Shown here piece by piece: positions 22,994 to 25,179 of a DNA stretch of 33,325 bases. Every line of letters starts with the position of its first letter. Positions within the stretch are counted from its first letter, which is position 1. Source of the DNA: Flavobacteriales bacterium (lineage in GTDB: Bacteria; Bacteroidota; Bacteroidia; Flavobacteriales_F; PHOS-HE28); assembly GCA_020437805.1 (NCBI GenBank), contig JAGQVV010000075.1, forward strand, positions 6,242 through 39,566, written 5' to 3'. The notes below the pieces were generated by a model, which saw nothing but the letters and a program-made list of their open reading frames with translations, made no database searches and was not told the DNA's origin. Made by a program: the position numbers and the translations under genes.

Positions 22994-23107
22994 GGTGGTG
23001 GTTCCGTCCGTGGGACGTGGTAGCGGCCGGGAAAGTAACAGGTGGAACCGTTGTTCATGCGGAACGGCCCGGTCCAGTGCAGTGGAATACGCCAGGGATC
23101 GAGCCCG

Positions 23108-23115
23108 TACCTTGC
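23108..23115 (+). promoter_or_regulatory. Candidate -7 element (TACCTTGC) close to the radical SAM start
   Basis: TACCTTGC ends 4 bases before the ATG at 23120, the same arrangement seen at 6338 and 13003. It would produce a leaderless or nearly leaderless mRNA. Its presence supports 23120 as the start over the upstream in-frame codons. Confidence 0.3.
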
Positions 23116-23119
23116 AGCC

Positions 23120-24142
23120 ATGCTCGCCCGCAGCCGTGATGCCTTTGAATGGGCGACCAAAGCAACACCCCGCCGACTGCGCAATGCGGCCGGGCTTTGG
23201 ACCAGCTACCAGCGGGCCAAGTGGAGCAAGGAACCGCGGATCGGTGGCCTGCCGTTCAGTATCAGCTTCGAGCCCACCACGGCCTGCAACTTGCGCTGCC
23301 CGGAATGTCCGAGCGGCTTACGGAGTTTCACCCGCCCCATTGGCAACCTGAAACAGGACCTGTTCACCCGAGTGATCGATGAACTGGCGCCGGACCTGTG
23401 GGCGCTCACCTTCTACTTCCAAGGCGAGCCGTACATCAATCCCGGTTTCCTCGACATGGTGCACTACGCCCATGGAAAGGGCTTATACACCGCCACCAGC
23501 ACCAACGCACATTTTCTGGATGACGCCAAGGCCGAGGCCACCGTGCGCAGCGGACTATCGCGGCTGATCATCTCGCTGGACGGCACCACGCAGGAGACCT
23601 ATTCCGCGTACCGCAAGGAAGGTGAACTGGCCAAGGTGATCGAAGGGACCGAACGCATCGTGGAATGGAAGCGCAGGCTGAAGAGCTGCACGCCGCACGT
23701 GGTGTTCCAGTTCCTGGTGGTGAGACCGAACGAGCACCAGATCCCCGACGCACGGAAGCTTGCGAAAGAGCTGGGCGTCGATGAACTCTGGCTGAAGACC
23801 GCGCAGATCTACGACCCGCAAGACGACCATGCGCTGATCCCCACGCAGGACAAGTACGCCCGCTACCGGCGCAATGAGAGCGGGGTGTGGGAGGTGAAGA
23901 ACAAGTTGCAGGACAACTGCTGGAAAATGTGGCACAGCTGCGTGATCACCTGGGATGGTCGTGTGGTGCCCTGTTGCTTCGACAAGGACGCCCACCATGT
24001 GCTCGGTGACCTAAGCACCCAAAGCTTCAAGGGGCTATGGCACAGCAATGGCTACCACGACTTCCGGCGCTCGCTGCTTCATTCTCGCAGCAGTATCGAG
24101 ATGTGCCGGAATTGTAGTGAGGGGAGCCCTGTTTGGGCCTGA
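23120..24142 (+). CDS. Radical SAM/SPASM-domain protein
   Basis: The product has 340 residues from the ATG at 23120 (the frame is open to 23042). Cys56, Cys60 and Cys63 form the CxxxCxxC cluster in TTACNLRCPECPSG, which binds the SAM-cleaving 4Fe-4S cluster. FYFQGEPYINP and IISLDGTTQETYSAYR are standard radical SAM barrel motifs. The C-terminal SPASM region contains Cys267, Cys274, Cys285, Cys286, Cys329 and Cys332, enough for an auxiliary cluster. SPASM enzymes often mature peptides or modify enzymes, but no short precursor peptide gene is visible beside it. The protein may act on a lipid, sugar or a distantly encoded peptide. The stop codon TGA is embedded in a hairpin shared with the facing frr gene. 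Confidence 0.92.
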   Translation: MLARSRDAFEWATKATPRRLRNAAGLWTSYQRAKWSKEPRIGGLPFSISFEPTTACNLRCPECPSGLRSFTRPIGNLKQDLFTRVIDELAPDLWALTFYFQGEPYINPGFLDMVHYAHGKGLYTATSTNAHFLDDAKAEATVRSGLSRLIISLDGTTQETYSAYRKEGELAKVIEGTERIVEWKRRLKSCTPHVVFQFLVVRPNEHQIPDARKLAKELGVDELWLKTAQIYDPQDDHALIPTQDKYARYRRNESGVWEVKNKLQDNCWKMWHSCVITWDGRVVPCCFDKDAHHVLGDLSTQSFKGLWHSNGYHDFRRSLLHSRSSIEMCRNCSEGSPVWA

Positions 24143-24172
24143 GGCCTCGGCTTCGCTCGGCCTGACAGGCCC
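24135..24172 (+). repeat. REP-like palindromic element (left copy) containing the radical SAM stop codon
   Basis: GGGCCT (24135-24140) pairs with AGGCCC (24167-24172), and AGGCC (24142-24146) pairs with GGCCT (24059-equivalent inner arm at 24159-24163). The 12-base loop TCGGCTTCGCTC spans 24147-24158. The radical SAM stop TGA (24140-24142) sits in the 5' arm. The right copy at 24592-24625 has almost the same loop in opposite orientation. The element resembles the abundant intergenic palindromes of Bacteroidota with a CTTCGCTCGG core, a comparison made from memory. Confidence 0.7.
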
Positions 24173-24222
24173 ACGCGCACTTTTCCAAACAGAACTTCAC
24201 GATCTCCACCATACTGTACCAC

Positions 24223-24234
24223 CGGTTGCAACCG
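24223..24234. promoter_or_regulatory. Perfect 12-bp palindrome upstream of the GIY-YIG gene
   Basis: CGGTTGCAACCG is a perfect dyad 28 bases before the ATG at 24262. GAGATTTG at 24243-24250 (one mismatch to TAnnTTTG) lies between it and the start. The position suits an operator, but no binding protein is known. Confidence 0.3.
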
Positions 24235-24261
24235 AACTGAACGAGATTTGCATTGATCGGC

Positions 24262-24582
24262 ATGCATATCCACTTCGTTCATATCATCGAATGCTGTGAT
24301 GCCACCCTGTACGTGGGTGTGACAAACAATGTGGAACGTAGGTTCCAAGAGCACTGCGAAGGGGTATCTCCTCGCTCGTACACAGCAAAGAGACGGCCAC
24401 TGAAACTCGTTCATGTAGAGCACTTCCGATGGATACAAGTCGCCATTGCTCGGGTAAAGCAACTTAAGGGATGGTCCGCCCAGAAGAAACGTGCCTTGAT
24501 AATGGCGCAAGAGGAAGTTCTACATCTCCTCGCTTCGTGTCGAAACTCCAGTTCACATCTGTACGGGAAGAACAGCACTTGA
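24262..24582 (+). CDS. Small GIY-YIG nuclease-family protein
   Basis: The product has 106 residues from the ATG at 24262 (a TTG at 24253 is an alternative). The fold markers are in order. FVHIIECCDATLYVGVTNN stands for the GIY...YIG strands (here VHI and YVG). VERRFQEHCEG supplies the catalytic Arg and His region. YTAKRRPLKLVHVEHF follows, then a Lys/Arg-rich helix with KQLKGWSAQKKRALI. This is the UvrC-N/YhbQ-like single-domain type, usually about 80-100 residues. The C-terminal tail (SCRNSSSHLYGKNST) is not part of the domain. It sits alone between the convergent radical SAM and frr genes, framed by two related hairpins. It looks less GC-rich than its neighbours, which hints at transfer. 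Many stand-alone family members have no known role. Confidence 0.82.
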   Translation: MHIHFVHIIECCDATLYVGVTNNVERRFQEHCEGVSPRSYTAKRRPLKLVHVEHFRWIQVAIARVKQLKGWSAQKKRALIMAQEEVLHLLASCRNSSSHLYGKNST

Positions 24583-24591
24583 CAACTTGAA

Positions 24592-24625
24592 GGTGTCACT
24601 CCGGGCGAAGCCGAGGAGTCACACC
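24592..24625 (-). repeat. REP-like palindromic element (right copy) containing the frr stop codon
   Basis: On the minus strand GGTGTGACTCC and GGAGTGACACC pair over 10 of 11 positions around the 12-base loop TCGGCTTCGCCC. The frr stop TGA (24621-24619) lies in the 5' arm at the same place, relative to the loop, as the radical SAM stop in the left copy. CCTCGGCTTCGC at 24145-24156 is matched exactly by its reverse complement at 24605-24616. It may also act as a transcription terminator for frr, but it has no long U-tract. Confidence 0.7.
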
Positions 24626-25179
24626 TTCATGATGTCCTTCTCCTTGGCGTCCACCAGAGCATCGACCTTCTTGTTGTAGATGCCGGTGAGCTTCTCCACC
24701 TCGGCATCCAGGCTCTTGGCGGTGTCCTCGGGAAGTCCGTCCTTCTTGGCGGTCTTGATGGCTTCCATGGCCTTCTGGCGGCTGCTGCGGATGCCCACGC
24801 GGGCATGTTCACCTTCAGCGTGGGCGTTCTTGGACAGGGCCTTCCGTCGATCCTCGGTCAGCATGGGCACGTGTATGATCACGCTTTCCCCATTGTTGCT
24901 CGGGTTGAACCCAAGGTTGGCGCCAATGATGGCCTTCTCGATGGGGTCGATCATGCTCTTCTCCCAAGGCTTCACGAACAGGGTGCGTGCATCGCCTGTG
25001 TTCACCGCTGCCACCTGGCCCAAGGGCACCATCTGTCCGTAGTAATCGACGTGCACGGTCTCGAGCATGCCCGGGTTCGCAGCGCCTGCACGGATCTTGG
25101 TGAGTTCGTGATCAAGGTGATCCACGGCTTTGCGCATGTGCTCTTCGCACTCGGAAATAACGGCGTCGGTATCGATCAT
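24619..25179 (-). CDS. frr: Ribosome recycling factor
   Basis: The 186-residue product releases the post-termination ribosome from mRNA together with EF-G. The whole length matches the family, with LDHELTKIRAGAANPGML (the conserved KIRxGRA-like region, here KIRAGAA), VDYYGQMVPLGQVA, KPWEKSMIDPIEKAI, NLGFNPSNNGESVIIHVPML and TEDRRKALSK. The Arg of the usual KIRTGRA motif is replaced by Ala-Ala, a mild variation. The gene follows pyrH by 45 bases, the common bacterial order, so they are probably one transcript. Its stop codon is inside a palindromic element. Confidence 0.97.
   Translation of the reverse strand: MIDTDAVISECEEHMRKAVDHLDHELTKIRAGAANPGMLETVHVDYYGQMVPLGQVAAVNTGDARTLFVKPWEKSMIDPIEKAIIGANLGFNPSNNGESVIIHVPMLTEDRRKALSKNAHAEGEHARVGIRSSRQKAMEAIKTAKKDGLPEDTAKSLDAEVEKLTGIYNKKVDALVDAKEKDIMKV

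Follow-up and report, generated by a model that had tools for sequence, protein, structure and literature searches.

Small GIY-YIG nuclease genes flanked by YGTCA-tagged palindromes, and an inverted-duplication footprint of the palindromes in a Flavobacteriales genus

How does a small nuclease gene come to lie between two related palindromes that each contain the stop codon of a neighboring gene? This question is raised by a short cassette in the stretch of 33,325 nucleotides of Flavobacteriales DNA that we analyzed as a whole (the window). On one side lies a radical-SAM/SPASM protein gene on the plus strand (23042 to 24142, where its open reading frame ends; Pfam PF04055 and PF13186), and on the other, on the minus strand, lies frr, encoding ribosome recycling factor (24619 to 25179; TIGR00496, E=1.1e-53). 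A sequence-only reading of the window had described the cassette as filling the space between two convergent stop codons, and it does occupy 24143 to 24618, from the radical-SAM stop to the frr stop. The same reading correctly placed a hairpin on each side of the GIY-YIG gene (24134 to 24173 and 24589 to 24628) and reported that the 12-mer CCTCGGCTTCGC at 24145 to 24156 has its exact reverse complement at 24605 to 24616. The neighbor's stop codon also takes the same position in both palindromes, as had been claimed (radical-SAM TGA at 24140 to 24142; frr stop, TCA on the plus strand, at 24619 to 24621).

The two palindromes, which we call S1 and S2, each contain a 28-nt core whose tag, TGTCA, faces the GIY-YIG gene. 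S1 (24134 to 24173, minus strand) is made up of a host outer arm, TGGGCC (24134 to 24139), a core (24140 to 24167, minus strand) of the form TGTCA-GGCC-GAGCGAAGCCGA-GGCC-TCA, and an inner inverted copy, GGCCCA (24168 to 24173). The tail of this core overlaps the radical-SAM stop, and the last codons of that gene, TGGGCC TGA, constitute the outer arm. S2 (24589 to 24628, plus strand) has GAAGG on its inner side, where frr codons are repeated in inverted orientation, then a core (24594 to 24621, plus strand) of the form TGTCA-CTCC-GGGCGAAGCCGA-GGAG-TCA whose tail reads as the frr stop codon in reverse complement, and an outer host arm identical with the last 16 nt of frr. The inverted frr 3' end can be followed further, in decayed form, at 24581 to 24596 on the plus strand (GACAACTTGAAGGTGT against frr GACATCATGAAGGTGT). 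The sequence-only reading had stressed that the loops (TCGGCTTCGCTC and TCGGCTTCGCCC) are alike while the stems differ and remain paired; this holds, except that the likeness extends beyond the loop to a common element, TGTCA-N4-(12-nt loop)-N4'-TCA. Its "covarying stem" is likewise paired, but mere covariation does not describe it, the outer arm being the end of the neighboring gene, which the inner arm repeats in inverted form. Both hairpins are stable, with RNA-fold z-scores of -3.0 (S1) and -4.9 (S2) against dinucleotide shuffles, none of 200 of which was equally stable. We rejected S1 and S2 as intrinsic terminators, a terminator scan having found no T run at either hairpin. Their makeup resembles that of tagged REPs in the CGTC/TGTC superfamily.

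The gene between them (24262 to 24582, plus strand) encodes a 106-amino-acid protein that matches Pfam PF01541 (E=1.8e-12; 47.8 bits against a cut-off of 22.6), and from this match its membership in the GIY-YIG fold is not in doubt. In a profile comparison it was similar to PDB 1zg2 and 1ywl and to entries for SLX1, a structure-specific GIY-YIG nuclease. When aligned with its orthologues, the window protein keeps the Arg, has a first-motif Tyr replaced by His, and carries Val (ARVKQLK) in place of the Glu of the conserved segment REKQLK, which we take to be the catalytic residue on the basis of the alignment. The orthologue in genome G009 keeps the active-site Tyr, Arg, and Glu, that of G016 is without the second-motif Tyr, and that of G002 is frameshifted. 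The dN between the window's copy (genome G000) and its orthologues is 0.34 to 0.38, compared with 0.12 between G009 and G016 (dS 1.14). Because Glu and the first Tyr are lost and dN is high, the window's copy is probably dead as a nuclease. Such inactivity agrees with how few REPs its genome holds: in the 3.2-Mb draft (356 contigs) we found four copies in total, and since only two lie beyond S1 and S2, both at contig C295, the repeat is rare there.

We compared this locus across 41 genomes with frr, covering the frr end at 39 loci. In the 15 genomes in which the gap between frr and the radical-SAM gene holds no GIY-YIG gene, it measures 0 to 79 nt, and the radical-SAM gene end is kept in relatives without the cassette. 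Orthologous cassettes with the loop family of S1 and S2 occupy the gap in G000, G002, G009, and G016, while in G007, G064, and G066 it contains GIY-YIG genes from other subfamilies, flanked by a different tagged family (TGTCAYTCCGGGCYTGACCCGGARTCGC). The gap is a hotspot for GIY-YIG cassettes. We also considered inversion of the cassette between its inverted palindromes and rejected it; the GIY-YIG gene has the orientation of the radical-SAM gene in G000, G002, G009, G016, and G066.

Comparison with relatives revealed where the arms of the palindromes come from. In relatives without the palindrome, frr typically ends in GACATCATGAAGGTGTGA and is followed by unrelated DNA, whereas in those with it, frr is followed by the loop and tag and then by an inverted copy, ACACCTTCATGATGTC; this copy is exact in G009 (16/16 nt), and the window retains it in partly decayed form. 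The frr gene of G002 ends differently (ATGACCGT), and the inner arm there matches the change (ACGGTCAT). For the radical-SAM gene end, TGGGCC in G000 goes with the inner arm GGCCCA, and GGGCG in G016 with CGCCC. Empty relatives exist at six sites: frr, the radical-SAM gene, dnaE, methylmalonyl-CoA mutase (filled in G010, G066, and G065, with many empty relatives), a restriction-type gene, and another gene end, where the names dnaE, methylmalonyl-CoA mutase, and restriction-type were read from translations with no database match behind them. At each, the filled form carries loop and tag together with a new arm measuring 8 to 20 nt, and we saw no intermediates; exact arms of 14 to 16 nt occur in G009 and G030. 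Across 58 non-redundant copies matching a stem-free pattern, the outer stem score averages 7.5, versus 3.0 when right flanks are exchanged. Since the outer arm is host sequence that is present in empty relatives, insertion brings in the loop and tag together with the 5' flank copied in inverted orientation, and the duplication that it makes is therefore inverted, not direct. A pre-existing palindrome as the insertion target was rejected, as only the outer host arm is present in empty relatives. This footprint narrows the possible insertion mechanisms. The in-frame REP insertion in the dnaE-like gene of G005 (L049, L310) duplicates the conserved GAIRRY codons in inverted orientation.

The repeat is dispersed through the genus. 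A stem-free search pattern, with reversed-pattern controls near zero, found the S1/S2 loop family in 31 of 45 genus genomes at 0 to 29 copies each, and a covariance-model search, which the sequence-only reading had proposed, matched the family in 37 of the 45; the palindrome is not unique to this locus. Some copies lie at gene ends, roughly twelve of them right at a stop codon, and others lie inside long reading frames. TGACA, the reverse complement of TGTCA, shows little or no variation among 24 aligned genus copies, which were picked with a pattern that includes the tag and allows up to 2 mismatches. Copies are numerous in G013 and G022, where no adjacent GIY-YIG gene was found, and in G065, which lay outside the GIY-YIG search. 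Within precisely this loop family, a neighboring GIY-YIG gene is seen at the frr locus alone (G000, G002, G009, and G016); GIY-YIG genes elsewhere are accompanied by different families belonging to the same tagged class. G065 and G002 (L172-L180, L154-L165) also have sub-families whose long-armed hairpin has multiplied as a whole, arms as well as core, across many sites.

Is the pairing of nuclease gene and tagged palindrome particular to this locus? We scanned 80 GIY-YIG loci in GTDB genomes that span several phyla, with Bacteroidota in the majority; four of the loci (L230-L233, Flavobacteriales) also belong to our genus/class set. Within 250 nt of these genes there were 91 YGTCA hairpins in 39.2 kb (2.32 per kb; 75 once overlapping detections are removed), compared to 68 in 688 kb (0.10 per kb) beyond 600 nt, an enrichment of about 24-fold (Poisson p about 5e-89) that returns to background within about 500 nt. 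Among relatives, the corresponding counts were 32 in 20.8 kb near GIY-YIG genes and 3 in 69.6 kb farther away. Altered tags occurred at 0.10 to 0.19 per kb near GIY-YIG genes (0.13 to 0.18 near the GTDB ones), and tagged hairpins occurred at 0.10 per kb near RAYT genes, 0.17 near DUF559 genes, 0.27 near four-helix genes, and 0 near frr. The stems of S1 and S2 are too short to be counted in these scans, so the association test is independent of what was found in the window. A word of at least 13 nt is shared from flank to flank by 56/74 GTDB GIY-YIG genes but by only 16/259 other small ORFs at the same loci (Fisher p about 5e-33), and, in a set of 43 GIY-YIG genes from the genus and class, by 28 of the 40 testable versus 1 of 37 frr genes. 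The palindromes are thus statistically linked to GIY-YIG genes, an association on which the sequence-only reading had made its proposal depend, and the analogy that it drew with REPs and RAYT genes is strongly supported as an association, with the enrichment near GIY-YIG genes and none near RAYT, DUF559, four-helix, or frr genes.

These REPs have a regular layout. Their spacing has a median of 33 nt before the GIY-YIG gene hit and 12 nt after its stop, the tags point outward in 15 of 20 two-sided loci (which makes the window's inward layout the minority), and the tail starts with C in all 75 tagged REPs near GIY-YIG genes, reading CTN, CGC, or CCN. In 16 genomes, GIY-adjacent REPs are scattered genome-wide in 5 to 98 copies (reversed control, zero), many of them in close opposed pairs that may descend from the REP-GIY-REP unit but lack its gene. 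The similarity of GIY-YIG proteins was weakly related to that of their REPs (Mantel rho 0.19, 8/2000; different-phyla pairs, 113/2000), and with so weak a correlation we set co-diversification aside. We found no host-derived outer arm at tagged REPs near GIY-YIG genes of other lineages (stem score 2.2, versus 2.4 in the null), so this arm is specific to the genus or to the S1/S2 loop family and may be a local feature. One GIY-YIG gene, in G006 (L016), adjoins three copies of another palindrome, GTGGTTCGACGGGCTCACCA, that has no YGTCA tag. Small stand-alone GIY-YIG genes flanked by YGTCA-tagged palindromes, like the inverted-duplication footprint in this genus, are new observations; a literature search covering openly accessible journal papers found nothing linking GIY-YIG genes, or the UPF0213/SLX1-like group, to REPs or mobile repeats.

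How, then, did the gene and its palindromes come together? We put about even chances on the cassette being a decayed REP-nuclease-REP unit, the autonomous form of CGTC/TGTC REPs, with fold-back copying in this genus. In its favor are the tag-specific enrichment, the shared flank words, the regular layout, the dispersal of GIY-adjacent REPs, the several GIY-YIG subfamilies found in one gap, the host-derived arms, and the profile similarity to SLX1. Weighing against it are the weak Mantel correlation, the many genus copies in genomes where no adjacent GIY-YIG gene turned up, the single locus that joins a GIY-YIG gene to this loop family, the inward tags of the window, and the lack of a host-derived arm in other lineages. 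The main rival, which we regard as rather unlikely, sees in the GIY-YIG gene a selfish, homing-type passenger with the tagged REP pairs as its landing sites, the REPs themselves being ancient or having spread otherwise. Homing endonucleases classically include GIY-YIG enzymes (PMC1564403), REPs are known targets for the insertion of IS elements (PMC1525189), and the genus does hold REP families without an adjacent GIY-YIG gene. Moreover, CGTC REPs are mostly paired with their tags outside (PMC3733652), and insertion between the halves of such a pair would give the layout that we observed. A passenger of this kind fits less well with the tight REP spacing on both sides of GIY-YIG genes, and no other enzyme is linked to tagged REPs, RAYT and DUF559 genes in the same genomes carrying repeats of their own.

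Two further explanations strike us as improbable, and each leaves the nuclease without a role. If the palindromes were selected 3'-end hairpins (terminators or mRNA stabilizers) of convergent genes, beside which the nuclease gene is incidental, one could account for both hairpins beginning at a stop codon and being stable, for the dozen or so genus copies exactly at a gene stop, and for stem pairing that persists while gene ends change. However, the T run of a terminator is absent at S1 and S2, the element also occurs inside the dnaE and methylmalonyl-CoA mutase reading frames, conservation of the tag, tail, and loop exceeds what a terminator needs, copy number varies from 0 to 29 between species, and the GIY-YIG link recurs across phyla. 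S1 and S2 may still serve secondarily as 3' hairpins. Template switching during replication is an established mutational process that corrects imperfect palindromes, and the host-specific arms could be its later product; the way in which the arms in G000, G016, and G002 track the local gene end is what continued correction would give. Against this, at every filled site with an empty relative the loop and tag are already accompanied by an 8- to 20-nt new arm, with no intermediate seen, the 14- to 16-nt arms in G009 and G030 are exact, and both the dispersal of loop plus tag and the GIY-YIG link are left unexplained.

Under the REP-nuclease-REP reading, the GIY-YIG nuclease would recognize the tagged hairpin and make a nick or break, and repair would copy the REP onto the broken end. 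In this genus, the new 3' end (...TGACA) would then fold back and copy its own 5' flank, so that every copy would acquire an outer stem specific to its host site and the target flank would be duplicated in inverted orientation. At the window, two convergent gene ends would each have been treated in this manner, leaving a cassette that fills the gap between the stops, and S1 and S2 would now be relics, perhaps also acting as 3'-end hairpins. We infer the cleavage, the copying of the REP, the fold-back step, and mobilization by the nuclease from patterns in the sequences. The broader proposal, that stand-alone GIY-YIG nucleases mobilize CGTC/TGTC REPs across bacteria and that insertion here proceeds by fold-back synthesis that duplicates the flank in inverted form, we advance tentatively, at somewhat less than even chances. 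If true, it would describe an insertion mode unlike either direct target-site duplication or the single-strand transposition of RAYT. The tag-specific GIY-YIG link would also suggest a function for a common, uncharacterized small gene.

Several known systems can be set beside this one. UPF0213/SLX1-like stand-alone nucleases have the same fold and size as the window's protein. Rickettsia RPE-4 and RPE-6, which we compare with S1 and S2 by description, are CGTC-type palindromes found in frame inside genes, but have no GIY-YIG link in the account of them (PMC3733652). DUF559 genes also have flanking repeats of their own (flanks of L372, L376, L377, and L382; e.g., CCCTCTCTATTGCATAGAGAGGGGG), and DUF559 domains occur in frame within large genes, apparently of methylmalonyl-CoA mutase and restriction-modification types (L373, L384, L386), where they adjoin repeats that translate as LTPTLSEGEG; DUF559 and its repeats may be a parallel nuclease-repeat pair. 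Genes for four-helix proteins (23S rRNA IVP) are abundant throughout the genus and class, and short tandem-like repeats often flank them (e.g., TTAGGTGTTAGGTATTAGGA; L343, L344, L361, L369).

RAYT REPtrons (TnpA-REP, a Y1 HUH transposase with GTAG REPs) resemble the GIY-YIG units in having a small nuclease gene between REPs and gene-less copies scattered elsewhere, and they differ in that the fold here is GIY-YIG, not HUH, the tag is TGTC, not GTAG, and no RAYT is at the locus. We found no Y1_Tnp (PF01797) at the locus, and the draft genome has only a broken fragment. RAYT was rejected as the mobilizer: present in 33 of 45 genus genomes, it is flanked by its own repeat and does not lie beside palindromes of the S1/S2 type (one copy is 1.4 kb off in G066). 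The palindrome that flanks genus RAYT genes (L210-L229) is distinct (GACCCCGAAGGGGTCGCA), with a common flank word in 15 of 19. By analogy, REP-GIY-REP is most likely the autonomous unit of YGTC-tagged REPs, the counterpart of the RAYT REPtron among GTAG REPs.

The closest relatives of S1 and S2 are the CGTC REPs, described by Di Nocera, De Gregorio & Rocco in 2013 as a superfamily without an associated transposase (PMC3733652). These occur in many phyla, including Bacteroidetes, at gene 3' ends and inside genes, dnaE among them, and are defined by a CGTC, TGTC, or CCTC tag, a stem of 8 to 9 bp with A-T at positions 1 and 2, and a short unpaired tail that is mostly CCA (PMC3733652). S1 and S2 likewise have a YGTC tag (TGTC) at one end and a dispersed distribution. 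In stem and tail they agree in part: the first pair is A-T and the second is not, and the tail is short but reads CA, with the host arm directly after it. Tagged REPs near GIY-YIG genes elsewhere have tag-adjacent stems, most of which start with AT. The stem of the genus loop family also differs in length, with 5 bp and a small hairpin inside it (3 inner pairs) instead of 8 to 9 bp. A host-derived outer arm is absent from the 2013 description, its nearest counterpart being REPs inside longer palindromes in three species (PMC3733652). Finally, the association with a GIY-YIG gene stands apart from a survey that gave no transposase. Given that this was a survey negative and not a defining trait, the GIY-YIG link extends membership in the superfamily rather than excluding it, and it provides a named candidate for the missing enzyme behind the spread of a large class of bacterial repeats.
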